A stretch of DNA of 64,000 bases, from the NCBI RefSeq assembly GCF_018070025.1, contig NZ_JAGPYQ010000001.1:4836001-4900000 (forward strand), read 5' to 3'. A program made the position numbers and the translations under genes. Shown piece by piece: positions 48,493 through 62,978 of the stretch. The DNA is from Streptomyces liliiviolaceus (lineage in GTDB: Bacteria; Actinomycetota; Actinomycetes; Streptomycetales; Streptomycetaceae). The notes under the pieces were generated by a model. The model did not search any database, was not told where the DNA came from, and saw nothing but the letters and a program-made list of their open reading frames with translations. Positions within the stretch are counted from its first letter, which is position 1; each line of letters starts with the position of its first letter.

Positions 48493-48560
48493 CTCACTTC
48501 CTCACGAACATCGGGGGTGACGGAATGGTGCGACGGAGCTGCTTGAACGAACGCCGAGGT

Positions 48561-48594
48561 GGCCGGGGCCCGGTCGTCGGCCCGGGCCCCGGCC
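48561..48594 (-). terminator. terminator between GH16 and DUF1996 genes
   Basis: GGCCGGGGCCCGG and CCGGGCCCCGGCC form a perfect 13-bp stem with a loop of about 8 bases, 14 bases past the GH16 stop. It is very stable; there is no U-tract. Confidence 0.75.
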
Positions 48595-48607
48595 TGGGAA
48601 CCGACGG

Positions 48608-50326
48608 CTACTGATAGACCCGTACGAAGTCGACGAGCATCTTGGACGGGAAGGGAGTGCTCGCGTCCGTCGGACCCGGCCAGTCACCGCCGACCGCGAG
48701 GTTGAGGATCATGTAGTGCGGGTGGTCGAAGATCCACGGCCCGCGTGTCTGCTCCACCTGGTCCTTGTCGAGGGAGAAGACGGTCCGGCCGTCCAGGCTG
48801 TAGGTGATGCCCTTGCTGTTCCAGTCGGCGGCCCAGGTGTGGAAGTCGTCGGAGAAGTCGGCGTTCCCGGGCAGGGTGTACGGCGAACCGATGCCGCCTC
48901 CACCGTTGTAGGCGGGCGCGTGGACGGTCGAGTACGCGGTCTTCACGTCCTTGCCGAGGACCTCCACGATGTCGACCTCGCCGTTGTACGGCCACGGCCG
49001 GCCCGTCAGGAAGTCGGCGCCCATCATCCAGAACGCGGGCCACAGGCCGTTGCCCTTGGGCACCTTGATGCGTGCTTCGACGCGCCCGTAGGTGAACTGG
49101 AACGTCGCGCCGGTGTTCATCCGCGCCGAGGTGTACTGGCAGGTGGTGCTGCCGCTCAACGGGTCACGCGGGCACGACGATCCGGCGGTGACCTCCTTGC
49201 GGGCCTCCATCACCAGGTGTCCCGACCCGTCCAGCGAGGCATTGCGATGGTCGGTGTAGTACTCCAGCTCGTTGTTCGGCCCGGTACCCGGGTCGGCCCG
49301 CCACTTCGAGGCGTCGGGCTTGCCGCCCGCGGCGCCGTCGAACTCGTCGCTCCACACCAGCCGCGGCGGGTTAGCGGGGTCGCTCGGCAGGGGCGGGGGC
49401 GTGATCGGGTCCCCGCCGGTGCCGTACACCTGGAACTCCCACAGCGAGTAGCCGTACGGGGTGGCGCGTTCCGTGCCGAACATGCGCACGTAGCGGCCGG
49501 TGCCGGAGACGGTCAGTGTCTGCTTGAAGCCCGTGCCTGACGTCGTCGAGTAGATCGGCGTCCAGTCGGTGCCGTTCGGTGAGACCTGGATCTGGAAGGA
49601 CTTGGCGTAGGCGGGATCCCATTGCAGGACGACCTTGTCGATCTGTGCCGTCGCGCCGAGGTCGATCGAGATCCAGCCCGGGTCGGTCCAGCCGGTGGTG
49701 GAGCTGGTGGCCCAGCGCGAGGCGGGGTCACGGTCGAACGCCCTGGCCGGTGTGCACTCCCAGCAGTTCCCGTCGCTCTGGGAGGAGGAGGCCGCGCCCG
49801 GCCTGCCGTAGGAGAGCAGCCTGCCCGGGTCTCCGCCGGTACCGCCGGCGGTGCCGTACACCTGGAACTCCCACAGCGAGTAGCCGTAGGCGGTGGCGCG
49901 TTGGGTTCCGTACATGCGCACATAGCGGCCGGTGCCGGTGACCGTCAGGTTCTGGGTGCCGCCCGTGCCCGAGGCCGTCTGGTGGACGGTGGTCCATGTC
50001 TGCGCGTCGCTCGACACCTCGATCCTGAACGCGGTGCCGTACGCGGCTTCCCAGTTGAGGACGACCCGGCTGATCCCGGCACTCGCGCCGAGGTCGATCT
50101 GGATCCACTGCGGATCGGCGAAGGCGCTGGACCACCGCGTCCCGGGGTCTCCGTCGACGGCGCTGCGGGCGTTGAAGTCCCCCTCGGTACTTGAGGCGGT
50201 GGCGGTCTTTCCCTGCGAGAGCAGGACCTCCGCTGCCTGTGCGGAGGGGGCGGGCAGAGCGATGAACGTGAGTAGTGAGGCGGCGAGCGTCAGAAATAAG
50301 GCGCAGCGACGCAACAGAGCTTGCAC
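48608..50326 (-). CDS. GH16 beta-glucanase with two discoidin (F5/8 type C) domains
   Basis: This 572-residue secreted enzyme has signal LFLTLAASLLTFIALPAPSA (residues 1-32). Two F5/8 type C carbohydrate-binding domains follow (about 33-160 and 175-310, each ending RYVRMxGTxRATxYGYSLWE, FQVYG). The GH16 catalytic domain covers about 330-572. The catalytic motif EVDIVE is at 450-455 (nucleophile Glu450, acid/base Glu455), of the laminarinase type acting on beta-1,3-glucans. AGGAG lies 7 bases before GTG 50326. It is divergent from a LacI regulator, with two dyads between them, so expression is probably induced by glucan-derived oligosaccharide. The two discoidin domains are near-duplicates. 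Confidence 0.9.
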   Translation of the reverse strand: MQALLRRCALFLTLAASLLTFIALPAPSAQAAEVLLSQGKTATASSTEGDFNARSAVDGDPGTRWSSAFADPQWIQIDLGASAGISRVVLNWEAAYGTAFRIEVSSDAQTWTTVHQTASGTGGTQNLTVTGTGRYVRMYGTQRATAYGYSLWEFQVYGTAGGTGGDPGRLLSYGRPGAASSSQSDGNCWECTPARAFDRDPASRWATSSTTGWTDPGWISIDLGATAQIDKVVLQWDPAYAKSFQIQVSPNGTDWTPIYSTTSGTGFKQTLTVSGTGRYVRMFGTERATPYGYSLWEFQVYGTGGDPITPPPLPSDPANPPRLVWSDEFDGAAGGKPDASKWRADPGTGPNNELEYYTDHRNASLDGSGHLVMEARKEVTAGSSCPRDPLSGSTTCQYTSARMNTGATFQFTYGRVEARIKVPKGNGLWPAFWMMGADFLTGRPWPYNGEVDIVEVLGKDVKTAYSTVHAPAYNGGGGIGSPYTLPGNADFSDDFHTWAADWNSKGITYSLDGRTVFSLDKDQVEQTRGPWIFDHPHYMILNLAVGGDWPGPTDASTPFPSKMLVDFVRVYQ

Positions 50327-50354
50327 GGGCGACTCCTCAAGTGGGGGCGAGGTG

Positions 50355-50368
50355 AGGGAGCGCTCCCT
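50355..50368. promoter_or_regulatory. LacI-type operator 1 (CebR-box-like)
   Basis: AGGGAGCGCTCCCT is a perfect 14-base palindrome differing from the CebR box TGGGAGCGCTCCCA only at the outer bases. It lies 28 bases upstream of the GH16 start codon. Confidence 0.78.
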
Positions 50369-50453
50369 GAAGGGGAGAATGGAGGGATGCGTGAAAGCTG
50401 TCAAGAGCTGTTTCACCTTGGAAAAACAGCGGTGTTACGCGTACGAATTCTTC

Positions 50454-50467
50454 AGGGAGCGGTCCCT
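50454..50467. promoter_or_regulatory. LacI-type operator 2
   Basis: AGGGAGCGGTCCCT matches operator 1 at 13 of 14 positions. The two centres are 99 bases apart, so a tetramer or two dimers could loop or bracket the GH16 promoter. Confidence 0.7.
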
Positions 50468-50654
50468 GGAGCCGCTCGCGCGACATCGTCGGCCCGGAGA
50501 CGGCGCAGGAGGCGAGGGACTCTTGGGCATGCTCATGACGCTCCTGCCTGCGGATACGCTGCTCACAACGTCATGACGCTGAGCCGGAGGTCGCCCTGAT
50601 GAGAAAACCCGCCCCGCGCACGAACCCGGGCGGCGACACAGGGGACGGACAGGG

Positions 50655-51647
50655 ATGAAACGCCCCACTCTGGAAGTGGTCGCCGCTCGGGCGGGCGTGT
50701 CCAAATCGAGCGTCTCCCGCGTCATCAACGGCGAGACGACGGTCGCCCCGGAGATCCGGGACGTCGTCATGCGCGCGGTGCGCGAACTGGGTTACGTGCC
50801 CAACGGGGCTGCCCGCAACCTCGTCACCCGCCGTACCGACACCCTCGCCGTGGTGGTCTCCGACCCGCCGCAGGGAGTCGTCTCCGACGACCCCCTCTTC
50901 TCGGCCGTGGTCCGCGCCGTCAGCCGAGAGCTGGAGAAGGCGGGCAAACGGCTCGTGCTCATGCTCGCGGAATCGGACCAGAGCCGGACCCGGGTGGTGC
51001 AGTACATCGCCGGCGGACACGTGGACGGCGTACTCCTGGTCGCCCTGCACGGTACGGACTCCCTGCCGGCCGCGCTCGCCCGGCAGGGTCTGCCCGTCGT
51101 GTCCTTCAACCGCACCTCCGCACAGGACGTCCCGTACGTGGCGCTGGACAACGCCGGCGGAGCGGCGCTGGCCGTACGTCACCTGCTGGAGCGCGGCCGG
51201 CGCCGGATCGCCACCATCACGGGGCCGCTCGAACTCCACGAGGCACGCGAGCGCCTGGCCGGCTACCGGCAGACGCTGCAGGACACCGGTCGGCGCTCGA
51301 TCGTGGCACTGGGCGACTTCACGAGGGCGTCCGGCGCCGAAGCCATGCGCCAGCTCCTGGAGGACGATCCCGACCTCGACGCGGTGTTCGCGTCCAACGA
51401 CCTGATGGCGATCGGAGCCCTGCGCACGCTCCAGAAGGCGGGCCGGCGCGTGCCCGAGGACGTGGCGGTGATCGGCTTCGACGACATCGAGGCCGCGTCC
51501 TACACGAGCCCCGCACTCACCTCGGTACGCAGCCCGATGGCGGACCAGGCGACCGCGGCCGTCCACCTGCTCCTCAACCTGATAGACGGCGGCCCCACAG
51601 ATCCGGTGATCATGCCGAACGAACTCGTGGTGCGCGAATCGACCTGA
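50655..51647 (+). CDS. LacI family regulator
   Basis: This 330-residue protein has the LacI helix-turn-helix and hinge (TLEVVAARAGVSKSSVSRVI, NGETTVAPEIRDVVMRAVRE, LGYVPNGAARNLVTRR) and a periplasmic-binding-like sugar domain (VDGVLLVALHGTDSLPAALA, VAVIGFDDIEAASYTSPALT). The SKSSVSRVING recognition helix is that of GGGAGCGCTCCC-binding regulators such as CebR, in agreement with the adjacent palindromes. It probably represses the divergent GH16 gene until a beta-glucan oligosaccharide binds. Confidence 0.9.
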   Translation: MKRPTLEVVAARAGVSKSSVSRVINGETTVAPEIRDVVMRAVRELGYVPNGAARNLVTRRTDTLAVVVSDPPQGVVSDDPLFSAVVRAVSRELEKAGKRLVLMLAESDQSRTRVVQYIAGGHVDGVLLVALHGTDSLPAALARQGLPVVSFNRTSAQDVPYVALDNAGGAALAVRHLLERGRRRIATITGPLELHEARERLAGYRQTLQDTGRRSIVALGDFTRASGAEAMRQLLEDDPDLDAVFASNDLMAIGALRTLQKAGRRVPEDVAVIGFDDIEAASYTSPALTSVRSPMADQATAAVHLLLNLIDGGPTDPVIMPNELVVREST

Positions 51648-51743
51648 CCGCGCGGCTTGTTCCGCGACCGGTCTCGCGACTGATCTCGCGTTCCGGAACC
51701 GCCGGGACCGGCTCGGTGGCCAGGGAAGCCGGACGGCCCTCCT

Positions 51744-52115
51744 TCAGGGTTTCCAGGTGCGGAGGAAGGCCGTGATCCGTTCGGCGGTGCAGTGCGGGTC
51801 GTTGAGTTCGTTGGCGAGCGCGGTGAGTTGTTCGCGGGTGGGGTTGACGGGGATGTTGCTGGCTTCGAGGTACATGACCGCGACGGCGCAGGCGACGGTG
51901 AGGTTGGAGCGTTCCAGCCAGCGGCAGCGGCCGAGGCTGTGGACCAGGGCGGCGGCGCGGGCGTAGGGGCCGTCGTAGACGGGGGTGTCGAGGAGTTCGC
52001 CGCGATGGCGGGCCACGGCGGCGATCGGCACGCCGTAGTCGTCGGCGGCCGGGTCGCGATGGCCCGCCCGTTCGGCGACTTCGAGGATCCAGGATTCGTC
52101 GACGTGCAGGATCAC
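51744..52115 (-). CDS. Doc/Fic-like toxin, active-site motif degenerate
   Basis: This 123-residue protein reads MILHVDESWILEVAERAGHR, then YGVPIAAVARHRGELLDTPV, then YDGPYARAAALVHSLGRCRW and CAVAVMYLEASNIPVNPTRE. The layout is that of death-on-curing (Doc) toxins. The catalytic HxFxDGNKR loop is replaced by LGRCRWLERSNLTVA, so the phosphate-binding and catalytic residues are mostly missing. The GTG at 52115 overlaps the antitoxin stop by 4 bases, a typical toxin-antitoxin arrangement. It may be an attenuated toxin or use different residues. Confidence 0.72.
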   Translation of the reverse strand: MILHVDESWILEVAERAGHRDPAADDYGVPIAAVARHRGELLDTPVYDGPYARAAALVHSLGRCRWLERSNLTVACAVAVMYLEASNIPVNPTREQLTALANELNDPHCTAERITAFLRTWKP

Positions 52116-52360
52116 GCGGCGGCACCCGGCTGCGGCTGCGCGTACGGGGCGTCGAGCTGCTCCTCCAGGTCGTCGAGGAAGGCGCCGTGCTCATTGATGA
52201 GCCGCTGGGCCGCCGCCATGCCCGCGGCGCGAGCACCGGTGGTGTCCTCGATGATCAGCCGCTCCACGTACTTGTTGAAGTCGAGCCGTCGGGCGGCCGC
52301 GGCGGCCTTGCCGGCGGCGAGGACGTCCTCTTCCAGCCGGACCTGCGTCTGCTTCTTCAT
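52112..52360 (-). CDS. antitoxin, ribbon-helix-helix type
   Basis: This protein of about 82 residues starts MKKQTQVRLEEDVLAAGKAA, the N-terminal strand and helix of an MetJ/Arc-like DNA-binding fold. It continues ARRLDFNKYVERLIIEDTTG and a C-terminal tail that would wrap the toxin (LINEHGAFLDDLEEQLDAPY). A GTG at 52369 is an alternative start. It precedes the Doc-like gene and overlaps it by 4 bases. It should neutralise the toxin and autoregulate the pair. Confidence 0.74.
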   Translation of the reverse strand: MKKQTQVRLEEDVLAAGKAAAAARRLDFNKYVERLIIEDTTGARAAGMAAAQRLINEHGAFLDDLEEQLDAPYAQPQPGAAA

Positions 52361-52487
52361 GGAAGTCACACCCAGATGGTAGCAGGGTGGTAGCTGCCGC
52401 GCGGGGGATGTGGCGCGGGCGGATGCGGCGCGGGCGCTGGATGCCCCAGATTCCCTGTCGCCCTACCGGAATCTGCACTCCGACGAT

Positions 52488-52512
52488 AAAAATCGACACC
52501 GTGTAGACTTTT
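52488..52512. promoter_or_regulatory. palindromic operator before SDR-TetR operon
   Basis: A 25-base imperfect dyad is centred at 52500: AAAAATCGACAC on the left and GTGTAGACTTTT on the right pair at 10 of 12 positions. It includes GTAGACT, a possible -10 element, and ends 47 bases before the SDR start. The TetR protein encoded at 53408 is the probable ligand-controlled repressor. Confidence 0.68.
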
Positions 52513-52559
52513 GGGTGAGGGAGCAACCAGGCTCCGTCCGAGTCCCAGCTGGAGGAACA

Positions 52560-53408
52560 GTGCAGGAACAGAAGTGGCTCATCACCGGCGTCAGCACGGG
52601 CCTCGGACGCGCCTTCGCCCAAGCGGCCCTGACCGCCGGGCACACCGTCGTCGGCACCGTCCGCTCGGAGAAGGACCTGCGGGCCTTCGAAGAGCTCGAA
52701 CCCGGACACGCTCACGGCCGCATCCTCGACGTGACGGACGGCGACGCGGTCGCGCGTGTGGTCGCTGAGGTGGAGCAGAGCGTCGGAGCTCTGGATGTCG
52801 TCATCGCCAACGCCGGCTTCGGCCTGGAGGGCACCTTCGAGGAGACCCCGCTGGCCGAGGTGCGGCGGCAGTTCGAGGTCAACGTGTTCGGGGTGGTGTC
52901 CACCCTGCAGGCCGTGCTGCCCCACATGCGCCGGCGCCGTAGCGGACATCTGATGGCCGTCACCTCCATGGGCGGGCTCATGGCCGTGCCCGGCATGTCC
53001 GCCTACTGCGGCAGCAAGTTCGCGCTGGAAGGCATCCTTGAGGCGCTGGGCAAGGAGGTCGCGCAGTTCGGGATCCACGTGACGGCGATCGAGCCCGGCT
53101 CCTTCCGCACCGACTGGGCCGGACGGTCCATGACACGTGCCGAGCGGTCCATCGACGACTACGACGAGCTGTTCGCCCCCATCCGTGAAGGGCGGCAGAA
53201 GGCCAGCGGGAATCAACTGGGCAACCCGGCCAAGGCCGGGGACGCCGTCGTACACATCACGTCGGTCGACCAGCCGCCGGCCCACCTCGTCCTGGGCTCG
53301 GACGCGCTGCGACTGGTCACCGCCGCGCGCACGGCCGTGGACGAGGACATCCGCGCCTGGGAGACGCTCTCCCGTACGACCGACTTCGCCGAAGGTGCTC
53401 AGCTCTGA
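52560..53408 (+). CDS. short-chain dehydrogenase/reductase
   Basis: This 282-residue SDR has cofactor motif TGVSTGLGRAFA, NAGFG, catalytic Ser in VTSMGG and Tyr-x-x-x-Lys in SAYCGSKFALEG. GGAGG (52551-52555) precedes the GTG at 52560 by 4 bases. It is of the oxidoreductase type that often partners TetR regulators. The downstream tetR gene starts within its stop codon (TGATG), so the pair is one operon behind the palindrome at 52488-52512. Confidence 0.87.
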   Translation: MQEQKWLITGVSTGLGRAFAQAALTAGHTVVGTVRSEKDLRAFEELEPGHAHGRILDVTDGDAVARVVAEVEQSVGALDVVIANAGFGLEGTFEETPLAEVRRQFEVNVFGVVSTLQAVLPHMRRRRSGHLMAVTSMGGLMAVPGMSAYCGSKFALEGILEALGKEVAQFGIHVTAIEPGSFRTDWAGRSMTRAERSIDDYDELFAPIREGRQKASGNQLGNPAKAGDAVVHITSVDQPPAHLVLGSDALRLVTAARTAVDEDIRAWETLSRTTDFAEGAQL

Positions 53409-54022
53409 TGCCCGGCAACCACCCCGCGCGAAGCCGACGCGGCACCGAGCGCAAGGGCGACGTCCGGGAGCGGGCCATTCTGGACACCTGCGAAGCCCTG
53501 CTGGCGCAGAAGGGCTACGACGCCATGACCGTCGGCGACATCGCCCAGGGCGCCGGTATCACGCGTGGCGCCCTGTACTTCTACTTCGGCTCGAAGCAAG
53601 AAGTGGTCACGGCGCTCGTGGCCCGTACGGTCGAGCACCTGTGGGAGCGGTCGCGGGTCACCGCGCAGGCCGATGAACCGCGCCAGGCCATCGCGGCAGC
53701 CATGCGGCGCACGGTCGAGCTGTGGAACGAGCACGGCCTGGTCATGCGTACGGCGATCGACCTGTCGCTGACCGTGCCGGAGATCGGCGAACTGTGGAGC
53801 CGTACAGCTGACTTGTTCATCGCAGCCATCACGGCCGTCCTGGAACGGGCCGGCATTCGGGCCGGCGGCGAGCCGGAACAAGCGTCGGCGATGGCACGCG
53901 CTCTGTGCTGGATGATCGAGCGCACCTTCTACCACGCCTCGCAGGAGTCCCGCGAGGATCTGCAAAACGCATCCTCGACCTGTGAACACATCTGGCTGGT
54001 CAGCGCGGGCCTGACCGCCTGA
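53408..54022 (+). CDS. TetR/AcrR family repressor
   Basis: This 204-residue protein has a TetR helix-turn-helix (RERAILDTCEALLAQKGYDA, MTVGDIAQGAGITRGALYFY, FGSKQEVVTALVART) and a ligand domain of the EthR-like type. The ATG overlaps the SDR stop (TGATG). It probably autoregulates the SDR-tetR operon. Confidence 0.85.
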   Translation: MPGNHPARSRRGTERKGDVRERAILDTCEALLAQKGYDAMTVGDIAQGAGITRGALYFYFGSKQEVVTALVARTVEHLWERSRVTAQADEPRQAIAAAMRRTVELWNEHGLVMRTAIDLSLTVPEIGELWSRTADLFIAAITAVLERAGIRAGGEPEQASAMARALCWMIERTFYHASQESREDLQNASSTCEHIWLVSAGLTA

Positions 54023-54238
54023 TGCATCCGGTGTCGGGACTGCATCAGCCGCTGAGGAGGATGGACGACGGCCGTCGTCAAACCCCGTGTGTGCGCGGGC
54101 GGTCGGTAATTCCGATCACGCAGTGGCGCCGATGGGGTAGCCTGTCCGGGATTTCGTGCGGCAGGTTCGCTGCCGCCCCGTTCGGCGCGCTCGGCGTCGA
54201 CACGCACCGCGTGCCCTGCCCGGAAGGAGGCGAGAGAC

Positions 54239-54313
54239 ATGGACCGTGCTGAATGCGTTGCGGCCATAGTTGCCTCCGGCCGTGTGCCCTCCCTCCTCTG
54301 CGGCGCGCGGTAG
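54239..54313 (+). CDS. leader peptide (uORF), 24 residues
   Basis: ATG 54239 to TAG 54313 encodes a 24-residue peptide beginning MDRAECVAAIVASGRV and ending LLCGAR. It has the best ribosome-binding site in the neighbourhood, GGAAGGAGG at 54222-54230, 8 bases from the ATG. A strong start on such a short frame, followed by hairpins and a U-rich terminator upstream of a drug exporter, is the pattern of ribosome-mediated attenuation. A ribosome slowed by an antibiotic on the leader would change RNA folding. Nothing in the peptide itself identifies the drug. Confidence 0.6.
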   Translation: MDRAECVAAIVASGRVPSLLCGAR

Positions 54314-54340
54314 CTCCTCCCCCTTCCTGTTTCCTGTCGT

Positions 54341-54361
54341 CGGCATCTTCCTGAGATGCCG
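54341..54361 (+). other. leader RNA hairpin 1
   Basis: CGGCATCT and AGATGCCG form a perfect 8-bp stem around a TCCTG loop, 28 bases after the leader-peptide stop, within reach of a stalled or trailing ribosome. Confidence 0.6.
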
Positions 54362-54382
54362 CGTCACGAGATGTCCTGGCCT

Positions 54383-54441
54383 GCGCGGTTCACCGCCGCG
54401 CGGGCCGCGGGGGCGCGCGCCCGAAGACGGGCCCTTCTTTT
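54383..54441 (+). terminator. attenuator: hairpin 2 and U-rich terminator hairpin
   Basis: Hairpin 2 is GCGCGG / CCGCGC (54383-54401, 7-base loop). It is followed by GCCCG-AAGA-CGGGC (54419-54432) and CC-TTCTTTT. A run of six T in seven bases is exceptional in this GC-rich DNA and points to intrinsic termination. The GC-rich stretch 54400-54420 (GCGGGCCGCGGGGGC) could pair alternatively with CGGGCCC and act as antiterminator. Confidence 0.6.
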
Positions 54442-54664
54442 GCTGGTCATCGTGATCTCGGCGTTCCGCGCCGCACGACCGGCAAGAGCACCGGCGTGAA
54501 TGACACGCGGTTGGTGAGGCAGGCCCCGGGTGCTGTTCGCGGTTCCCGCTGCCCCACCGCCCTGCCGTGTCCCCGTGCTGCGTACACCGGCCCGTCGTCA
54601 CCACCGCGACCGTCCCTGGCCGGCTGTCTCGACAGCGCTTCGACACGAAACGTGCGTGATCGTC

Positions 54665-56275
54665 ATGAGCAAGAGTCCTCCCGAACGTCCCGGAGGGGAA
54701 TCCCGTCCCGGAGGGGAATCCCTCCCCCGCGGCCTCTCCACCCCTTCCACGGCCACCGGCCGCTCTCCGGACCGCGAGGTTCCCGCCGCGACTCCGACTC
54801 CTGTGCCGACACCGGCATTGGCAGCGGCACCGGCACCGGCACCGGATCCGAAGCGCTGGTGGGCGCTGGCCGTCATCGCCCTCGCCCAGCTGATGGTGAT
54901 CCTCGACGGCACCATCGTGAACATCGCGCTGCCCTCCGCCCAGCACGCTCTCGGCATGTCGGACGGCGACCGGCAGTGGGTGATCACCGCCTACACGCTG
55001 GCCTTCGGCGGGCTGCTGCTGCTCGGCGGCCGGATCGCCGATCTGGTGGGCCGCAAGCGCACCTTCGTCATCGGCCTGGCCGGGTTCGCCGCGGCCTCCG
55101 CACTGGGCGGCGCGGCGGCCGGTCCCGGGATGCTGTTCGCGGCGCGGGCCCTGCAAGGTGCGTTCGCGGCGCTCCTGGCGCCCTCGGCCCTGTCACTGCT
55201 GACGACGACGTTCACCGACCCCAAGGAGCGGGCCAGGGCGTTCGGGGTCTACGGTGCGCTGGCCGGCGGCGGCAGCGCGGTCGGCCTGATCGTGGGCGGT
55301 CTGCTGACCGAGTACCTGAACTGGCGCTGGTCCCTGTACGTCAACGTGCCCATCGCGCTGGCCGCCCTGCTCGGCGCACCGGCCTTCCTGCGCGACCGCA
55401 CCGGCCGTCGGGACGGGCGCCTGGACGTGCCGGGCGCACTGCTGGGCTGCGGCGGGCTCGTCGCCCTCGTGTACGGGTTCAGCGAGGCTGAACCTCGCGG
55501 CTGGGCCGACCCGTCGGTCCTCACGCTGCTCGTGGCCGGCGTGATCCTGCTCGCCGCCTTCGTGTGGTGGCAGAGCCGCGCTGCGAGCCCGCTGCTGCCG
55601 CTGCGCATCGTCAAGGACCGTGTCCGGGCCGGATCGCTCGCGACGATGGGCCTGGCCACCGTCGGCATGTTCGGCGTCTTCCTGTTCCTGACGTACTACC
55701 TGCAGGTCGTCCTCGGCTACCCGCCGGTGCGGACGGGCCTGGCCTTCGTGCCGATCTCGGCCGGCATCGTCATCGGCGCCACCCAGATCGCGGCCCGCCT
55801 GCTGCCACGCACGGCACCGCGCGTCTTGATGTCGTCCGGCATGGTGCTGGCCGCCGCCGGAATGGTGCTGCTCAGCAGCCTGACCGTGCATGCGCAGTAC
55901 GTCCCGCGCGTGCTGCCCGCCCTGCTGCTGCTCGGCCTGGGCATGGGCCTGACCTTCATGCCGGTCTACGCGACGGCCACGGCCGGCGTGCCCGCGCAGG
56001 ACGCCGGTGTGGCCTCGGCCGTGCTCAACACCGTTCAGCAGATGGGCGCTTCGCTGGGCACCGTGCTGCTCAACACCATCGCCACCGGCCGTTACGTCCA
56101 CTCGCACGTGCACGATCCGGTCCACGGCGGCGCGACCCTCGACGAAGGCATGGTGCACGGCTTCTCCGTCGCCTACCGGTGCTCGGCGGGCGTCCTGCTG
56201 CTCGCCGCCCTGGTGGCGGGCCTCACCGTACGGCGGAAGACGCCGAAGCATGCCGGAACCGACGCACGGGCCTGA
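54665..56275 (+). CDS. MFS multidrug exporter, 14-helix EmrB/QacA type
   Basis: This protein of about 536 residues has the DHA2 layout: motif D1 LDGTIVNIALP in helix 1, motif A GGRIADLVGRKR, motif C GGGSAVGLIVGG and the C-terminal HGFSVAYRCSAGVLLLAALV. Residues 1-60 are a hydrophilic, Pro/Ala-rich extension with a tandem RPGGES repeat, unusual for the family. ATG 54665 has no good ribosome-binding site, and GTG 54656 or 54530 are alternatives, so the start is uncertain. It should export cationic or amphipathic drugs by proton antiport. A predicted translation-sensing attenuator precedes it, and a FusB-like ribosome-protection gene follows. Confidence 0.85.
   Translation: MSKSPPERPGGESRPGGESLPRGLSTPSTATGRSPDREVPAATPTPVPTPALAAAPAPAPDPKRWWALAVIALAQLMVILDGTIVNIALPSAQHALGMSDGDRQWVITAYTLAFGGLLLLGGRIADLVGRKRTFVIGLAGFAAASALGGAAAGPGMLFAARALQGAFAALLAPSALSLLTTTFTDPKERARAFGVYGALAGGGSAVGLIVGGLLTEYLNWRWSLYVNVPIALAALLGAPAFLRDRTGRRDGRLDVPGALLGCGGLVALVYGFSEAEPRGWADPSVLTLLVAGVILLAAFVWWQSRAASPLLPLRIVKDRVRAGSLATMGLATVGMFGVFLFLTYYLQVVLGYPPVRTGLAFVPISAGIVIGATQIAARLLPRTAPRVLMSSGMVLAAAGMVLLSSLTVHAQYVPRVLPALLLLGLGMGLTFMPVYATATAGVPAQDAGVASAVLNTVQQMGASLGTVLLNTIATGRYVHSHVHDPVHGGATLDEGMVHGFSVAYRCSAGVLLLAALVAGLTVRRKTPKHAGTDARA
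54686..54721 (+). repeat. 18-bp tandem duplication in the MFS 5' end
   Basis: CGTCCCGGAGGGGAATCC occurs twice head to tail (54686-54703, 54704-54721), giving a repeated RPGGES in the N-terminal extension. Both copies contain GGAGGGG, so they might also act as false ribosome-binding sites. Confidence 0.85.
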
Positions 56276-56276
56276 C

Positions 56277-56404
56277 CAGCCAGGGCCACGTCCCACAACC
56301 GGCACAACGAGCCGGGGCCACGTCCCGCCACCGGCCTGACGAGCCTGGGCCGCGTCCAGCCACCGGCTTACGCGCCGAGGTCGTGTCCGGCCACCCTCCA
56401 CCTC
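56277..56404. repeat. four degenerate 32-bp tandem repeats
   Basis: Units start at 56277, 56309, 56341 and 56373, each 32 bases, with the common core GGGCCACGTCC followed by CCACCGGC. Copies 1-3 are similar to each other and copy 4 is more diverged. They fill the spacer between the exporter and the FBP-domain gene. Confidence 0.78.
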
Positions 56405-56423
56405 ACCCCTCGAAGGACCTCCC

Positions 56424-56921
56424 ATGAAACCCCTGACCGAGCACGACATCCGTACCTCGTTCGTCAACTGCTCGAAGGGCGAGGCCAAACGCCTCCCCCT
56501 GCCCAAGAACCTGGCGGACCTCGACCACTGGGACGACCTGGACTTCCTGGGCTGGTTCGATCTGTCCGCGCCCGATCGCAAGTATCTCGTCGTCGAACGC
56601 GCCGATGAACTCGTCGGCCTGTCCCTGCGCTCCTCTTCCGGCAACCGCGGCTTCCTTCGCCGCAGCCTGTGCTCGCTGTGCCTGACCACGCATCCCGGCA
56701 GCGGTGTCTCCCTGATGAGCGCCCCCAAGGCAGGCCCGGCCGGCCGCGGAGGCAACTCGGTGGGCGTCTACATCTGCGCCGACCTGGACTGCTCGTTGTA
56801 CGTACGCGGCAGGAAGAAGGCGGCGCCGGGCGGGCGGATGGAGGAGTCCCTCACCGTCGAGCAGCAGATCGAGCGGCTGCGCGGCAACCTCGACGCGTTC
56901 GTGGAGCGGGTCTTGAACTGA
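56424..56921 (+). CDS. FBP/FusB-like EF-G-binding zinc-finger protein
   Basis: This 165-residue protein has a C-terminal treble-clef zinc finger with Cys83-x2-Cys86 (RSLCSLCLTTHPGSGVSLMS) and Cys118-x4-Cys123 (GNSVGVYICADLDCSLYVRG), the FBP C-terminal module. Members related to FusB/FusC bind elongation factor G and free it from stalled ribosomes, giving fusidic-acid resistance in staphylococci. The streptomycete homologues are uncharacterised. AAGGA lies 7-8 bases before the ATG. It follows the MFS exporter by 148 bases and ends at a strong terminator, so it may be part of the same attenuated transcript. Confidence 0.8.
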   Translation: MKPLTEHDIRTSFVNCSKGEAKRLPLPKNLADLDHWDDLDFLGWFDLSAPDRKYLVVERADELVGLSLRSSSGNRGFLRRSLCSLCLTTHPGSGVSLMSAPKAGPAGRGGNSVGVYICADLDCSLYVRGRKKAAPGGRMEESLTVEQQIERLRGNLDAFVERVLN

Positions 56922-56925
56922 CGCC

Positions 56926-56963
56926 GACAGGGGCTCGACGGACGTCGCCGCCGAGCCCCTGTC
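56926..56963. terminator. bidirectional terminator after FBP gene
   Basis: GACAGGGGCTCG and CGAGCCCCTGTC form a perfect 12-bp stem, starting 5 bases after the FBP stop codon. It lies between convergent genes and can serve the I36 inhibitor gene as well. Confidence 0.78.
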
Positions 56964-57029
56964 ATCCCGACCACCGCGGCAGGCACAGCCGGCCCCGGCG
57001 ATCACCCCCGTGGGTCATGGGTGTCCGCG

Positions 57030-57407
57030 TCAGCACTCGCCTCGCCAGCGGACGCTGTAGACGACCTCCGTGTAGGGAGCGGTCCACTTGTACTGGCCGG
57101 GCCCGGGGTTGTAGTGGAGACAACTGGTGACGGTGCCATCCCCCTCGTACCAGTACGTCATGTCGACGTGGTCGGCTCCCGGGAACGCGTATCCGTTGTT
57201 GAAGACGGACCGGAAGTTCACCTGGCCGCTCCAGTTGCCTGCCGTCTTGAGCACCAGCGATCCGGTCTGATCCGGCCCGCTGTAAGCGCAGAAGTACCCC
57301 TTGGGGCATCCGGGCGGATTCGCTTCGGCGGAGGCGGTGGTGGCCGAGGCGATGACACCGAGCATCGCAGCGGCGGTTGCGAGGGTTGCCGCAGCCTTCT
57401 TGCGCAT
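57030..57407 (-). CDS. secreted peptidase inhibitor family I36 protein
   Basis: This 125-residue protein has a Sec signal (MRKKAAATLATAAAMLGVIA, cleavage after TTASAE). The mature part is of the I36/SMPI crystallin-like fold: PPGCPKGYFCAYSGPDQTGS, then NNGYAFPGADHVDMTYWY and a terminal Cys (SVRWRGEC). Four cysteines (CPKGYFC, TSCLHY, GEC) can form two disulfides. GGGGA lies 6 bases before the ATG at 57407. It probably inhibits extracellular metallo- or serine peptidases; some family members have lost this function. 16-bp tandem repeats lie just upstream. Confidence 0.82.
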   Translation of the reverse strand: MRKKAAATLATAAAMLGVIASATTASAEANPPGCPKGYFCAYSGPDQTGSLVLKTAGNWSGQVNFRSVFNNGYAFPGADHVDMTYWYEGDGTVTSCLHYNPGPGQYKWTAPYTEVVYSVRWRGEC

Positions 57408-57454
57408 ATCGTTCCCCTGTTTCTGGTCGTGGCCATCGGCCCTGGCGCCAGGAC

Positions 57455-57510
57455 GTACGGCGACCGGCCCGTACGAAGGTCGGTCCGTACGTAGGTCGGT
57501 CCGTACGCGG
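57455..57510. repeat. 16-bp tandem repeats upstream of the I36 gene
   Basis: GTACGAAGGTCGGTCC (57471-57486) is followed directly by GTACGTAGGTCGGTCC (57487-57502) and the start of a third copy (GTACGCGG). A diverged copy precedes them (GTACGGCGACCGGCCC, 57455-57470). The spacing is exactly 16 bases. They may be iterated regulator-binding sites about 50-100 bases from the gene. Confidence 0.75.
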
Positions 57511-57778
57511 ATCACGTCCACACCATGACGCAGATCGCGGGGGCAGCGCGAGACCCTTCAGCCACACCTGAAACCCGCTGCTCAGGCGCAGGAACAGGGA
57601 TACCGGCCGGGGCAGCGCCCGAGCGGCCGGGCCCTGCCCGACGGCCCCGGTCGCGTCCGAGAGCCTGAGAGACGCGCTGCGCCTGAGCACGCCCGGTACT
57701 CATGAGCGGCAGACAGCCGCACACGTCACAGCCCTTGACGCACCCCGTCGACAGGACGAAGGATTACCGCTGCCGCTT

Positions 57779-57790
57779 GACAACGTTGTC
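57779..57790 (+). promoter_or_regulatory. LacI-type operator
   Basis: GACAACGTTGTC is a perfect 12-base palindrome with the central CG typical of LacI-family operators (TGACAACGTTGTCA type); TT precedes it, giving TTGACA. It ends 25 bases before the start of the discoidin enzyme gene. The nearby LacI gene at 50655 appears to recognise a different dyad, so the regulator is probably elsewhere. Confidence 0.68.
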
Positions 57791-57815
57791 CGGCTCATGG
57801 AGAGAGGCGCCGATC

Positions 57816-60800
57816 GTGTCCCGCATACCTGCTCCCCCGGTCGCCCGGCGCCGTTTCGTCCAACTCCTCGGCGTCTCCGCGGGCTTGGCCGCTCTGCCTC
57901 TGACACTCGGGCCCGCCGCCGCCCACGCCGAGGACCGTTCCGGTGGGCTCGCGGGGCGATCCGGCGCGGCGCCGGACGACGTGGCGGCCGTCTACCATCG
58001 TGTCCTGCTGAACCACACCCGCTGGTCGGAGCAGCAATGGGACCAGGCACGCGGGTACTACACGGACAAGGACTTCGGTTTCGCCGTGGTCCTTGGCAAC
58101 GCGGTCCTCCTCACGCACGGTGCGTACGACGGCGACCGGGCCGGTGTCGACGAGCAGACGCTGCGGACCCGGACCCTGGCGACCATCAAGCACTTCGCCG
58201 CCTCCAACCGGCTGACCGGCGGCGCCCAGTGGGGCCGCAAGCTGTTCTTCGACACGACCTTCCAGTCGTACTTCGTCCTCGCCGCACGACTCCTGTGGGA
58301 CGAGCTCGACGCGGTGACCCGGAAACACGTCGACACGATCGCGCGCGAACAGGCGGCCTACACGGCCGGCCTGGGCACGGGTGACGACCCGGACTCCGGT
58401 GACTGGACCCCCCACGGGCTCTCCGGCGGCTACCAGAAGGACACCAAGCTGGAGGAGATGGGCGTGTACGCCCAGTCCCTCGCCCCCGGTGCGGCCTGGG
58501 CCGCGGACGACCCCCGGCACGCCGACTGGCTGGCCGCGTACGGCACCTGGTCGCGCAACGAAGCGGGGCTGCCCCCGGCGGACCTCGCCAACCCGGTGCG
58601 CGTCGACGGCGTTCCCGTCACCGCGAACACGGCCCGCAACCTGTACGACACGTTCATCGTCGAGAACCACGGCTCCTTCGGCCCGCACTACCAGCAGGAG
58701 TTGTGGCGTACGTCGGGGCGCAATGCCGCGCACTTCATCGCCGCCGGGCGCCCGATGCCGCAGGTACTCACCCGGCAGCCGAACGCCGACCTCCTGTGGC
58801 GCACCCTCCTCGGGGTGATGAGCGACGCCGGAGAGCCGCTGATGCCCATGGTGGCGGACCGCGAGCACCTCTACGGGCGGGACGTCGTCCCGCTCGCCTT
58901 CCTCGCCCAGATCGGCGGCGACCGGGCGGCGGCCCGTGCCGAGCGCTCGCTGGCCTCGCGGCTGGAGGCGTACCAGGCCTACCCTCCGGAGTACCGGCTG
59001 GCGAAGTTCTCGGGCGAACCGAAGTACGAGCCGGAGGCCAGGGCCGAGTTGGCCATCAGCTACCTCCTGCATGTGTGGGCTGCCGAGCAGGGGCGCACGG
59101 TCCGCCCGCTGTCCGAGGCCGACCTGTTCGCGCACGCCTCCGGCGTCACCGACTTCGGAGCCGAGCCGGGTCTCGTCTCCCACCAGTCGCCCGGAGCCTG
59201 GGCCGGTGCCGTCTCCAAGCCGGGCTTCGTGAAGTTCGCCTGGCAACCGGCGCACGACGACTGGCTGTTCAAGGTCAGCGGCGGCACTCCGATGTTCCTC
59301 CCGACCGTGTCGGGCAAGGTCGAGAGCCGCCGGGTGCGGACGTACAGCCGGGTCCGTGACGGGTTCGACGGCAGCGCGACCGTGCTGCGCCTGGGCGCGG
59401 AGTACGCCGGTTGGACGTCTCTTCCCTCGGGCGCCGTCGTCTACGCGACCACGGGCGTCGCCGCCGGCGAGGGGCATCTGGAGGTGCACAACCTCACCAT
59501 GCCCGGCGTGGCCGGGCTGTCGGGCTCCCGTACCTACCGCTTCGCGGAGGGCAGCGCCACGGTCACCGCGCAGGACGCCCGTCCGCCGGTGGCCTCCCCG
59601 CGGGTGGACGACCTCACGTTCGCGCGGACCGAGGTACGGCATCTGCGGATGGCCGGGGTCCGGCCCGATCCGACGTACGGGTACTCGCTGTTCGCGTTCG
59701 AGGCACGCGACGGGGCGGCGGGCACCGACCTCGCCCGGGCTGCGACGGCCACCGCGTCGTCCTTCGACCCCGGCAAGGAGCCGGCCCTGGCGGTGGACGG
59801 GAACCCGACGAGCCGATGGGCCGTCTCGCGGGCGGAGCGCCCCCGCACGGACAGCTGGCTCGCCGTCGACCTCGGCGGATCGCACTCCGTGGACCGGGTG
59901 AGTCTGCGCTGGGAGGCCGCCGCGGGGCGCGCCTACCTTCTGCAAGGCTCCGTGGACGGCCAGGAGTGGACCGACCTGGTGTCGTGGCCGGTCCCCGATG
60001 CGTCGAGCCGGGGTGGCTGGCTCGACGTCGACGGCCGTGCGGGACTGGTGGTGCGGGACTCGGAACACCCGCTGGCCGTGTACGGCGACACCGTGGTCCT
60101 GGCGGACGGACCGGCCGCCCCGCTGCTGGTCGAGGGACTGCCCGACGCCTCCCCCGCCGCCCTGCGTGAACTGGCCGGCCGCCCCGCGCCGCACGCCACG
60201 GACGGTGCCGTACGTGCCGCTCTCACGTACGGCCATCTCAGCCTGTTCAACCTCTCCGACCGGGCGATCGCCACGCAGGTCGCGATCCCGCAGTCCCGAT
60301 CGCACCTGTCCTTGTTCGAGGGCCGGCAGACGGTGAGCACGTCCGGCAGTTCCTACGAGGCCGCGCTCGACGCCGTCACGGCCCAGGTCCTGGCGCCGCG
60401 GCTCTCGCTGCGTCCGCTGTCCGGCGGTCGGCTTCCCGTGGGCCTGCGCGCGGAGGTCGTCGACGCTTCCACGGTCCGGCTCAGCGGTCCGTCCTGCCGT
60501 CTCCGGGTCGTCGGCCCGAGCTCCGACGCGGTGGTCGTGGTGCGCTCGGGGCGGGTCGCCACCTGCACGCTGCGGGACACTCCCGCGTATCCGCACAGCG
60601 ATCTCGCTCTGGGGCGCACCGTCTTCCCGACATCGCCTCTGCCGCCGGGCATGTCGGACCCCTCAGCGGCCGTGGACGGCGATCCGGCGACGGCCTGGAC
60701 CCCCGGCCCCGGCGGTCGGATGGTCGTCGACCTCGGTGCGACGCAGCGGATCCGCGGCATCCGCACGCGGTGGACGCGAGGGTGGGTGCCCGGGGTCCGG

Positions 60801-60965
60801 GTGGAGGTCAGCGCCGACGGGCTGACGTACACGCGGATCGGGCGGCTGACAGGCACGGGGCGGAGCCGGGATCTGGGCGCGGACACCGATGCACGCTACG
60901 TCGCCGTCGTCACCGAATCCGGAGCGGGGGCGGGGGCGCGGCTCGTCGAACTCTCGCTGCGGTGA
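57816..60965 (+). CDS. Tat-exported discoidin-domain enzyme, family uncertain
   Basis: This 1049-residue protein has a twin-arginine signal (VARRRFVQLLGVSAGLAALP). Residues about 45-440 look like an alpha/alpha-toroid of polysaccharide lyases or unclassified glycosidases (LFFDTTFQSYFVLAARLLWD, TFIVENHGSFGPHYQQELWR, YPPEYRLAKFSGEPKYEPEA). Beta-sandwich parts follow, with two F5/8 type C domains near residues 650-740 (TASSFDPGKEPALAVDGNPT) and 940-1049 (MSDPSAAVDGDPATAWTPGP, RMVVDLGATQRIRGIRTRWT). GAGAGG lies 8 bases before GTG 57816. An operator of LacI type lies immediately upstream, so it is probably sugar-induced. I cannot name the catalytic family or residues with confidence. Confidence 0.78.
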   Translation: MSRIPAPPVARRRFVQLLGVSAGLAALPLTLGPAAAHAEDRSGGLAGRSGAAPDDVAAVYHRVLLNHTRWSEQQWDQARGYYTDKDFGFAVVLGNAVLLTHGAYDGDRAGVDEQTLRTRTLATIKHFAASNRLTGGAQWGRKLFFDTTFQSYFVLAARLLWDELDAVTRKHVDTIAREQAAYTAGLGTGDDPDSGDWTPHGLSGGYQKDTKLEEMGVYAQSLAPGAAWAADDPRHADWLAAYGTWSRNEAGLPPADLANPVRVDGVPVTANTARNLYDTFIVENHGSFGPHYQQELWRTSGRNAAHFIAAGRPMPQVLTRQPNADLLWRTLLGVMSDAGEPLMPMVADREHLYGRDVVPLAFLAQIGGDRAAARAERSLASRLEAYQAYPPEYRLAKFSGEPKYEPEARAELAISYLLHVWAAEQGRTVRPLSEADLFAHASGVTDFGAEPGLVSHQSPGAWAGAVSKPGFVKFAWQPAHDDWLFKVSGGTPMFLPTVSGKVESRRVRTYSRVRDGFDGSATVLRLGAEYAGWTSLPSGAVVYATTGVAAGEGHLEVHNLTMPGVAGLSGSRTYRFAEGSATVTAQDARPPVASPRVDDLTFARTEVRHLRMAGVRPDPTYGYSLFAFEARDGAAGTDLARAATATASSFDPGKEPALAVDGNPTSRWAVSRAERPRTDSWLAVDLGGSHSVDRVSLRWEAAAGRAYLLQGSVDGQEWTDLVSWPVPDASSRGGWLDVDGRAGLVVRDSEHPLAVYGDTVVLADGPAAPLLVEGLPDASPAALRELAGRPAPHATDGAVRAALTYGHLSLFNLSDRAIATQVAIPQSRSHLSLFEGRQTVSTSGSSYEAALDAVTAQVLAPRLSLRPLSGGRLPVGLRAEVVDASTVRLSGPSCRLRVVGPSSDAVVVVRSGRVATCTLRDTPAYPHSDLALGRTVFPTSPLPPGMSDPSAAVDGDPATAWTPGPGGRMVVDLGATQRIRGIRTRWTRGWVPGVRVEVSADGLTYTRIGRLTGTGRSRDLGADTDARYVAVVTESGAGAGARLVELSLR

Positions 60966-61020
60966 GAACTCCACGGCGGTCCCGGCCACCGGCGAGGCGG
61001 CATCGCATACGGTCTGCGGC

Positions 61021-61524
61021 ATGACAGCGGAAGATTCGAAAAGCCCCAGGCCCCGGGTGCAGTTGGTCATCGGCATCGTCCGCCGCGGCCACGAGATCCT
61101 GCTCGTACGAGAGGGTCTCGGGGTCCACGGCGAGATGCGCTGGTCGCTGCCCGGTGGCGGGGTCGAGGACGGTGAACTCCTGCACGAGGCCCTGCGCCGT
61201 GAACTGCGGGAGGAGACCGGGCTGCTGGTGGGCGATCCGGTGCGGACCGCGTTCCTCATGCACATCGACTCCGAGCAGCACCCCTCGGCATTGGCCGCCG
61301 CCTTCGAGATCGACGAGTGGGCGGGGGACCTCACGCCGCAGGACGACGACATCGAACAGGCCGCCTTCTTCCCCCTGCCCGATGCCTTGAAGCTGCTCGG
61401 TGAACTCGACAGCGCGACACAGCGGGAGCCCATCGTCGGCTATCTGACGGGCGCCGTCGCGCCGGGAACGACCTGGCTGTACCGCAACCGGGGCGGGGAG
61501 GAGACGCTCGTCGCCCGCTGGTGA
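61021..61524 (+). CDS. Nudix hydrolase
   Basis: This 167-residue protein has a complete Nudix box (GGVEDGELLHEALRRELREE then TGL: G-x5-E-x7-RE-x2-EE-x-GL). RVQLVIGIVRRGHEILLVRE is the typical first strand pair. It hydrolyses nucleoside diphosphates linked to another group; the substrate cannot be inferred. The ATG at 61021 lies 55 bases after the previous gene. A long hairpin follows the gene. Confidence 0.9.
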   Translation: MTAEDSKSPRPRVQLVIGIVRRGHEILLVREGLGVHGEMRWSLPGGGVEDGELLHEALRRELREETGLLVGDPVRTAFLMHIDSEQHPSALAAAFEIDEWAGDLTPQDDDIEQAAFFPLPDALKLLGELDSATQREPIVGYLTGAVAPGTTWLYRNRGGEETLVARW

Positions 61525-61889
61525 CGACAGACCCAGGCACCGGCAGACGACCCCGTGCGGCCGGCCGGGTGCCCTGTACCCGCGATCGCGCCGCTACGGG
61601 GCACCCGGCGCGCAGCCGGCTGCGGCAGGCAGTGGCCGTCAGGTCGCGCAGCCGTCCTCCCCGGCTCCTGGTCCTCCGGAGGGGATTGAGAGGGCCAGGA
61701 GCCGGGGTCCGGGGCCCTGAACCGGCCTCCGTCCAGCGGGGGCCGTCCCTGTATGTGTCTTCCGGTACGGGCCGCGGGCCGGATGCGGTCGTAGTCGGCA
61801 TCTACGCCTGTTGCGGGGCCGTCTCATCCGTCGATGAGCGCTACCTGCCTGGACCCTTCCCTCACGGCGTGGGAGAGCGCGGGCCGTGT
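61525..61889. other. convergent spacer with terminator
   Basis: This 365-base spacer between the Nudix gene and the leftward alcohol dehydrogenase gene holds the hairpin at 61661-61705 and no supportable gene. Confidence 0.55.
61661..61705. terminator. bidirectional hairpin terminator
   Basis: CCGGCTCCTGG (61661-61671) and CCAGGAGCCGG (61695-61705) are perfectly complementary around a 23-base loop that can itself pair (CCTCC/GGAGG). It lies between convergent genes. Confidence 0.62.
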
Positions 61890-62978
61890 TCAGGAGAAGT
61901 CGGTGATGACGACCCTGGCGGTGTTGCCGTCCTTCAGCGCCTCGTAGCCTGCCGCGATGTCGGCGAGGCCGATCTCCTTGGAGACCAGGTCGTCGAGGTT
62001 CATGCGGCCCTGGAGGTAGAGGGAGGCGTAGTAGGGGATGTCCCGCTTGAGGTTGGAGGAGCCCATGTAGACGCCCTGGACCTTGTGCGAACTGCTCAGC
62101 GCCGCGATGGAGTTGACCTCCACACCGGCGTCGTTGCTGCTGACGCCGATCAGATAGAGGCCGCCGCCCCTGGCCAGCATCCCCATGCCCTGGGCGGTCA
62201 CGGCCCGCGCGCCGACGAAGTCGAAGACGTGGTCGGCGCCGTGCCCGGTGATCTCCCGTACGGCCTCGACCGGGTCGGTGGTGCGGGAGTTCACGACGTG
62301 GGTGGCGCCGAACGCCTTGGCGCGCTCCAGCTTGCTGTCCTCGATGTCGGTGACGACGATCTTCTCCGCGCCGGCGATGCGAGCGCCGCTGACCGCGTTC
62401 ATGCCGACCCCGCCGGCTCCGATGACGACGACGGTCTCGCCGTGCGCGACCTGCGCGCTGTTGAGGACGGCGCCGGCTCCGGTGAGGACGCCGCAACCTA
62501 TCAGCGCGGCCGGGGCCCAGGGCATGTCCTCGGGGATGACGGCGAGCTGGCTCTCGTGGATCAGTGCTTCCTGCGCGAATCCGCCGAGCCCCATGCCCTG
62601 TGCGACGGGAGCGCCGTTCCAGCTGATCCTCGACGGCTGGTCGGCTCCTCTGAGGGTCGCTTCGGGACGCAGGCAGATGTGAGTGCGGCCGCCGAGGCAG
62701 TTGGCACAGGTCCCGCAGTACTGGATGAGGCAGCCGACGACGTGGTCACCGACGCGCGCCTGGGTCACCCGGGGGCCGACCGCGACGACCACGCCCGCCA
62801 CCTCGTGGCCGAGCACGACGGGGAACTCCTCGCCGATGAACGTCGCGACGCTCAGGTCCGAGTGGCACAGGCCCGAAGCCTTGACCTCGATACGGACTTC
62901 GTGCCCGACGGGTTCGGCAAGGTCCACGTCCTCGACGACGAAGCCCTGACCGAGTCCCTTGGTGATGGATGCCTTCAT
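61890..62978 (-). CDS. zinc-dependent alcohol dehydrogenase (class III-like MDR)
   Basis: This 362-residue medium-chain dehydrogenase has catalytic zinc ligands Cys38 (GLCHSD) and His58-Glu59 (VLGHEVAG), structural zinc cysteines 88, 91, 94 and 102 (QYCGTCANCLGGRTHIC) and the NAD motif VIGAGGVGMNAV followed by VVTDIED (Asp indicates NAD preference). The layout is that of the Zn-ADH group used for aromatic or aliphatic alcohols and for formaldehyde adducts; mycothiol-dependent activity is possible but not shown. The ATG at 62978 is preferred to an open upstream extension. It is divergent from a TetR regulator. Confidence 0.9.
   Translation of the reverse strand: MKASITKGLGQGFVVEDVDLAEPVGHEVRIEVKASGLCHSDLSVATFIGEEFPVVLGHEVAGVVVAVGPRVTQARVGDHVVGCLIQYCGTCANCLGGRTHICLRPEATLRGADQPSRISWNGAPVAQGMGLGGFAQEALIHESQLAVIPEDMPWAPAALIGCGVLTGAGAVLNSAQVAHGETVVVIGAGGVGMNAVSGARIAGAEKIVVTDIEDSKLERAKAFGATHVVNSRTTDPVEAVREITGHGADHVFDFVGARAVTAQGMGMLARGGGLYLIGVSSNDAGVEVNSIAALSSSHKVQGVYMGSSNLKRDIPYYASLYLQGRMNLDDLVSKEIGLADIAAGYEALKDGNTARVVITDFS

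Follow-up and report, generated by a model that had tools for sequence, protein, structure and literature searches.

A stretch of 64,000 nucleotides from Streptomyces liliiviolaceus, hereafter the window, carries at positions 54138-56963 a compact unit consisting of a promoter, a short upstream open reading frame (uORF), several RNA hairpins, a GC stem followed by TTCTTTT, a gene for an exporter of the major facilitator superfamily (MFS), a gene for an FBP_C-domain protein and a closing hairpin. We interpret this unit as an inducible, transferable resistance cassette under ribosome-mediated transcription attenuation, with a probability of roughly 0.55. A preliminary description of the same DNA had listed a uORF with a Shine-Dalgarno sequence, an 8-bp perfect hairpin, a second hairpin and a GC stem with TTCTTTT, followed by a drug-exporter gene, an FBP-family gene and a strong terminator; all the leader elements are present in the sequence, and so are the two genes (PF07690/TIGR00711 and PF16571) and the closing hairpin (a 12-bp stem). 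Its "640-base leader", however, is the gap between the stop of the upstream TetR gene (54022) and the MFS ATG (54665), whereas the leader RNA would measure about 515 nucleotides from the predicted start at about 54150. The main features are given below in window coordinates; L-numbers denote the loci of relatives and G-numbers their genomes.

54106-54143, forward strand: predicted promoter, with a WblC/WhiB7-like GTAATT (54106-54111), 3 bp, a -35 ATCACG, 17 bp and a -10 TAGCCT (54138-54143)
54158-54176, forward strand: hairpin P1, 7 pairs
54201-54213, forward strand: hairpin H2 (CACGC-ACC-GCGTG)
54222-54230, forward strand: Shine-Dalgarno sequence of the uORF, GGAAGGAGG, ending eight bases upstream of its ATG
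54226-54277, forward strand: hairpin P3, two helices, which would hide the Shine-Dalgarno sequence and AUG of the uORF
54239-54313, forward strand: uORF of 24 codons, MDRAECVAAIVASGRVPSLLCGAR followed by a stop, from the sequence and leader comparison
54279-54311, forward strand: hairpin P4 within the uORF, 10 pairs between segment B (54279-54288) and segment D (54302-54311)
54341-54361, forward strand: hairpin P5, 8 bp, perfect, CGGCATCT/AGATGCCG
about 54377-54407: GC-rich hairpin
54414-54421, forward strand: segment C (CGCGCGCC), candidate antiterminator partner of D, overlapping the 5' arm of P7
54419-54441, forward strand: candidate attenuator terminator P7, GCCCG-AAGA-CGGGC (stem 54419-54432) followed by CCTTCTTTT
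54665-56275, forward strand: DHA2-family MFS exporter gene (PF07690, E 1.7e-52; TIGR00711, 251.1 bits against a cut-off of 230.2)
56424-56921, forward strand: FBP_C gene (PF16571, E 1.6e-63, 213.3 bits against a cut-off of 27.2)
56926-56963, forward strand: closing hairpin with a perfect 12-bp stem, the right end of the cassette

The boundaries of the unit emerge from comparison with its relatives. One genome per species was scanned for the MFS gene in 84,980 species, and the best 80 of at least 580 confirmed relatives were kept. The leader, recognized by DNA match, is found in 15 of these 80, and the same 15 carry an FBP gene directly downstream, while the other 65 have neither leader nor FBP in the available DNA (some contigs, e.g., L102, stop soon after the MFS gene, and a 39-base match downstream of the L110 MFS gene was disregarded). 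Flanks were compared on the plus strand with window positions 47001-64000 for 11 of the 15 cassette loci, without L037, L038, L039 and L042, where the available DNA is shorter. All 11 have long flanks and share same-strand sequence with the window over the cassette only, from 54064-54098 (from 54192 in L060, which is divergent) to 56912-56963, and nothing outside is shared at E 1e-10; on this comparison, we take the unit to be an autonomous, transferable cassette. The TetR and SDR genes of the window do not accompany it, the exception being a 27%-identical TetR several kb off in L033. The cassette as a whole was not found on plasmids: 231 of 72,556 plasmid records match, none over more than 80% of the query, and the ten listed cover 43-48%, inside the MFS gene.

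A motif from the middle of the uORF, with at most one mismatch, is found in 21 genomes among 392 of the genus, a single time in each, as opposed to no occurrence of its reversed control among the matches listed. Twenty loci were fetched, i.e., 19 of the 21 motif loci (without the window and without G180, whose locus is L034, with MFS and FBP) plus that of G254, and in all 20 the leader precedes an MFS gene, an FBP gene or both: 13 have MFS and FBP, four have FBP and no MFS match exceeding 60% identity, and three have MFS without FBP. The motif was picked from known cassette leaders, and more divergent leaders may exist on other genes. Judged by these gene orders, the leader is modular, exporter and FBP genes each occurring behind it with or without the other.

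The uORF of this leader is well preserved. Its start, Shine-Dalgarno sequence and stop are conserved across leaders, with an invariant GGAGG in 27 aligned leaders, and it is open and 24 codons long in 20/20 fetched leaders. At codons 9-17, 16 of 19 relatives agree with the window at all nine third positions and L186, L191 and L060 at eight or nine, whereas third-position identity in the FBP gene is 71-95% (16 relatives compared) and only 71-73% in the same three loci. Because the uORF retains its third positions while those of FBP diverge, selection on codons 9-17 seems to act on the RNA. The encoded amino acids differ among leaders at codons 8, 9, 12 and 13.

The surrounding RNA also shows signs of conserved structure. 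The 306-nucleotide leader folds with a z-score of -3.9, none of 100 shuffles being equally stable. The structure alignment contains 31 leaders, 26 of them distinct; L044 was left out because part of its leader is duplicated, the copied segment (L044:4457-4660, Streptomyces zingiberis) apparently being that around H2. P1, H2 and P4 are paired in every distinct leader lettered there. All lettered cells of P1 are paired (its columns being lettered in 24-25 of the 26 distinct rows, with gaps in the rest), and two of its pairs have changed on both sides; H2 is paired at 100% in 26 rows, with one pair changed on both sides, from A-U to G-C in three rows; and the 10 pairs of P4 are likewise 100% paired, eight never varying and two varying on one side only. 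The two helices of P3 are 97.1% and 95.7% paired, with no two-sided change. P5 and P7 were assessed in a separate alignment of the region behind the uORF, comprising 21 leaders (without L060, L136 and L191, too divergent, and L115, L183 and L195, close copies); here P5 is 97.6% and 95.2% paired and has two pairs with two-sided changes, a number reached by 17 of 500 shuffles.

For the structure as a whole, six cells carry two-sided changes versus 1.4 in shuffles (0/500 reach this), and neither the covariation score (0/500) nor the percentage paired (3/500) is readily matched; three pairs have two-sided changes versus 1.2 in shuffles (29/500) and 21 pair types occur versus 19.1 (27/500). Related rows may beat shuffles even without structure, and versions of the structure slid along the alignment are at most 59% paired. 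Positions 54207-54215, overlapping H2, can pair instead with the end of the uORF (98.7% paired), a long-range pairing that was kept out of the main model because it lacks covariation. Conservation of the uORF and hairpins in related leaders, proposed as a check in the preliminary description, is borne out.

The P7 stem, invariant in the 21 leaders of the alignment behind the uORF, is one of two sites found by a terminator-pattern scan where 0.6 are expected. It is present in 27 leaders, all of which keep segment C, and is followed by TTCTTTT in 13/27 and by a seven-base tail with four or more T in 24/27. Segment D, formed by the last uORF codons, can pair either with B, as in P4, or with C. 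The stalled state was modelled in 19 of the 27 P7-bearing leaders by folding only the strand that begins where B ends, to mimic a ribosome covering B; in this state the D:C pairing has a mean probability of at least 0.88 in 17/19 leaders and P7 one of at most 0.06 in 18/19. In silico, the D:C antiterminator and the P7 terminator exclude each other. When the stretch from uORF to P7 was shuffled 200 times in six leaders, the pairing of D with the terminator arm was reached by 2% of shuffles for the window, 0 for L007, 0.5% for L179, 5% for L060, 12.5% for L136 and 1.5% for L191.

The following sequence of events can be proposed. A WblC/WhiB7-type promoter would start transcription near 54150. 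Where free ribosomes read the uORF to its end, or where it is not read at all, D would be covered or locked in P4, and RNA polymerase would stop at P7 (54419-54441). An inhibitor stalling the ribosome at about codons 9-15 would cover B and free D to pair with C, a step consistent with the folding calculations, so that the P7 arm would be broken and transcription would reach the MFS exporter and FBP genes. Judging from their families, the exporter would then lower the drug and FBP would act on EF-G or on stalled ribosomes. We count in support of attenuation that Streptomyces uses ribosome-mediated attenuation at lmrC and are5sc, according to passages of PMC8546547 and PMC12421871.

Several results weigh against this interpretation. 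The tail behind P7 has at least one change in 11/27 leaders and is C-rich in three others (L060, L136 and L191). P7 is absent from six leaders with an intact uORF: it was lost by deletion in L011 and L040 and together with the MFS gene in L114, and in L012, L119 and L137, where the leader is short, its place is taken by a long hairpin close to the inferred MFS start; uORF control in these six, if kept, must work another way. The resting state is uneven as well, P7 reaching a probability of at least 0.5 in 14/19 leaders when a ribosome is placed near the start, in 7/19 with a ribosome at the stop and in 9/19 without a ribosome (0.29 in the window), and with the ribosome edge at codon 19, L117 and L136 fold P7 again. 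For the size of the switch (P7 unstalled minus stalled), the fraction of shuffles that do as well is 12.5% in the window, 2% in L179, 22% in L007, 46% in L060, 90.5% in L136 and 49.5% in L191, and the D partner alone gives shuffle p values of 0.01-0.3. Finally, residues of the presumed stall region vary (A8V, A9T, A9P, A12V), so that no strict arrest peptide is evident. The ribosome-sensing attenuator of the preliminary description is supported in part: folding speaks for a stall-dependent antiterminator, but some uORF-bearing leaders are without the terminator. That description did not notice the mobility of the cassette, its modular variants or the relation of its leader to M-box-linked uORF leaders.

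The leader has relatives in a different regulatory setting. A sequence model (R1) built from cassette leaders alone found, at E 1e-4 or better in 246 genomes of the genus, 12 cassette leaders and 17 other places and, at E 1e-3 in 147 genomes of the order, six cassette leaders, seven other places and one apparent chance match. The R1 match L125 was dropped, as its reading frames suggest an ordinary coding region. The 24 other places (L138-L154, L120-L124, L126 and L127) carry a similar uORF, typically MDxxxxSPGHSRPxxRxSSxxSGTR before the stop, with deviations in L127 and L145 and with a start that would be TTG in L120 and GTG in L149. Behind these leaders lies an Nramp gene in 17/24 and MgtC in L126, and an M-box is located directly upstream in 18/24, the remaining six having none up to E 0.5. 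The window has no M-box (RF00380): none was found up to E 1 at 53900-57000 and none in its own genome up to E 0.01, and the cassette leaders L060, L136 and L012 are likewise without a match.

A joint alignment of 22 of the 24 non-cassette leaders with four cassette leaders shows three stretches in common: the Shine-Dalgarno block, GGCCATAGT and the end of the uORF, R-V-P...G-A-R-stop versus R-V-S...G-T-R-stop. One 1-base and one 2-base gap, whose placement in this short stretch is uncertain, shift the middle of the uORF into a different frame, the shared bases reading SPGHSRP in the M-box type and VAAIVAPG in the cassette. By this alignment, the middle stretch common to both kinds of leader appears to be read in different frames by the cassette uORF and the M-box-linked uORFs. 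The cassette form may derive from the M-box form, a direction that we infer, and the likeness suggests one ribosome-monitoring device reused for two different stresses. Tentatively, it is possible that a module residing behind the M-boxes of Streptomyces transporters lost its aptamer, gained a stress promoter and shifted its middle frame while keeping its pairing and end, and that the result is a portable sensor of drugs, used by exporter genes and EF-G-binding genes alike, each of which can attach to it or drop out on its own.

Some further arrangements accompany this second leader family. Up to six leader matches occur in one genome (G191). L149 and L154 have the uORF type without an M-box ahead of an apparent glyoxalase/VOC gene, with Pfam support, just above cut-off, for L154 only, and in L150 and L127 an M-box and uORF leader precedes a gene whose product has a DNA-binding domain of response-regulator type (Pfam was applied to L150 only). 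In L138, L146 and L141, the Nramp Shine-Dalgarno sequence GGGAGGT has its complement ACCTCCC, or a near match, ahead of it, possibly a second, translational switch after the uORF.

This kinship feeds the main rival explanation, according to which the uORF, as its M-box-linked relatives may do, reports a general slowdown of ribosomes or low Mg2+ rather than a defined drug arrest; hairpins and the accessibility to Rho would change when the uORF is untranslated or slowly translated, and P7, poor in U, would not be where most transcription stops. It is consistent with the Nramp genes and M-boxes around the homologous leaders, with the C-rich, G-poor stretch after the uORF stop in window-type leaders, and with a uORF middle that is common as DNA and apparently read in another frame; moreover, the M-box of Mycobacterium tuberculosis controls a uORF by a translational platform and Rho termination, as described in part of PMC12810186. 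We nonetheless hold it to be unlikely, given that the window region is without an M-box, that the leader stands before MFS or FBP in every fetched locus, and that the P7 tail is T-rich in 24 of 27 leaders.

Less probable still is control by the promoter, i.e., activation of the cassette by WblC (WhiB7) under translation stress, with the uORF and hairpins playing a minor part or affecting mRNA stability only. A TANNNT -10 element ends 93-96 nucleotides upstream of the uORF in 29/31 leaders (75 in L060 and 120 in L044), and transcription is expected to start near 54150. The WblC consensus reads GAAAWY, 3 bp, a -35 TKGMNN, 16-19 bp and TANNNT in PMC7157823, which names MFS genes among those under WblC control. 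The window promoter scores 10/13 against this consensus, a value reached by 1% of 200 shuffles; scores across the 31 leaders are 9-13 (shuffle fractions 0-0.085), with 13/13 in L137 and 12/13 in L012 and L114. WblC control of the cassette is plausible, many leaders having a WblC-like box 3 bp ahead of the -35, but most of the boxes are degenerate (9/13 in L008, L117, L136, L191 and L193) and conservation is far stronger over the uORF segment than over the box. As to a promoter downstream of 54441 that would drive the exporter, which the preliminary description had named as evidence against attenuation, a scan of 53900-57100 gave no sigma-70-like promoter; the same scan also misses the proposed WblC-like promoter.

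Translation attenuation, in which refolding of the leader would govern not transcription but the accessibility of the MFS start, is very improbable. It would suit L012, L119 and L137, where about 120 nucleotides separate the uORF from the inferred MFS start, a TTG behind the long hairpin, and no P7-like terminator is seen, although in two of these three cases folding of the L012-type region does not surpass that of shuffles; in the window, by contrast, the MFS start lies 351 nucleotides past the uORF stop with a terminator in between. An ordinary long leader without regulation is hardly credible in view of the conservation, the covariation and the linkage of leader and genes.

Within the cassette proteins, the exporter lies above the TIGR00711 cut-off, a property in common with the DHA2/EmrB exporters TcmA, LmrA and LfrA, but does not reach the cut-off of any named exporter model in the 25 of 46 families listed. 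An 18-bp unit at the start of its gene (54686-54726) is present in 2.3 copies in the window and apparently single in seven of eight aligned relatives. In the FBP protein, the FBP_C domain spans residues 8-163 of 165, and cysteines C83, C86, C118 and C123 are invariant among 26 aligned homologs, forming a candidate zinc site. The FusB-like nature claimed in the preliminary description holds for the domain (PF16571) and the four-cysteine pattern; the N-terminal four-helix bundle of FusB is, however, not present, and the profile match to FusC (2yb5) in the PDB stays below threshold (E 0.67), ranked behind an unrelated protein at E 0.25. The spacing also differs, CXXC-X31-CX4C in the cassette protein, which corresponds to the C-terminal domain only, versus CXXC-X23-CX5C in FusB. 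The structure model is of low confidence (pLDDT 39.5). EF-G binding, with which residues F156, K184, Y187 and F208 are associated in FusB, may be supposed from the family, as may protection of EF-G by FBP. Across the phylum, FBP_C was found in 5 of 119 genomes (four over cut-off); three of the five belong to the genus of the window, which leaves too few diverse sequences for a better alignment. The window's own genome has a second FBP, 68% identical to that of the cassette, near which the leader model gives no match up to E 1.

Three further features lie beside or within the unit; at the repeat array, the alignments of relatives mostly skip about 60 bases or more.

53408-54022: TetR gene, upstream neighbour of the cassette
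56265-56395, forward strand: 32-bp tandem repeat, 4.1 copies, extending the gap between MFS and FBP in the window
57030-57521, opposite strand: gene with a protease-inhibitor match (PF03995, E 1.3e-7), neighbour beyond the right end

Ribosome-mediated attenuation itself is already known, and the cassette would be a variant of it. With the Streptomyces ABCF attenuators (lmrC, are5sc and tiaA) and wblC it has in common a uORF and a predicted terminator/antiterminator in the leader of an antibiotic-response gene. It differs from them in its 24-codon uORF, in carrying MFS and/or FBP_C instead of ABCF genes, and in moving as a unit; the leader peptides of tiaA and are5sc, MVGDDDISG and MLV in passages of PMC8546547 and PMC12421871, are far shorter. 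M-box leaders with a uORF, such as that of the pe20 operon of M. tuberculosis, are likewise structured leaders with a conserved uORF, and those of Streptomyces have extended sequence in common with the cassette leader, which differs in the missing aptamer and the apparent change of frame; the mycobacterial uORF2 peptide is described as mycobacteria-specific in part of PMC12810186. The literature consulted also includes PMC3352095, PMC3811445, PMC11109978 and PMC13236596. No earlier description of an exporter and FBP_C under one leader, of the mobility of the cassette or of the kinship with M-box uORFs was found in the open-licence literature.

Streptomyces makes many ribosome-targeting drugs. 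If the proposed mechanism is true, one ribosome-sensing switch would induce both efflux and translation-factor protection in one transferable unit. If the M-box homology is true, Mg2+ shortage and antibiotics would be readable by one RNA device whose reading frame is the adjustable part, and the role of M-box uORFs would become testable, since the change of frame separates RNA pairing from nascent-peptide sequence, two influences that are usually confounded.

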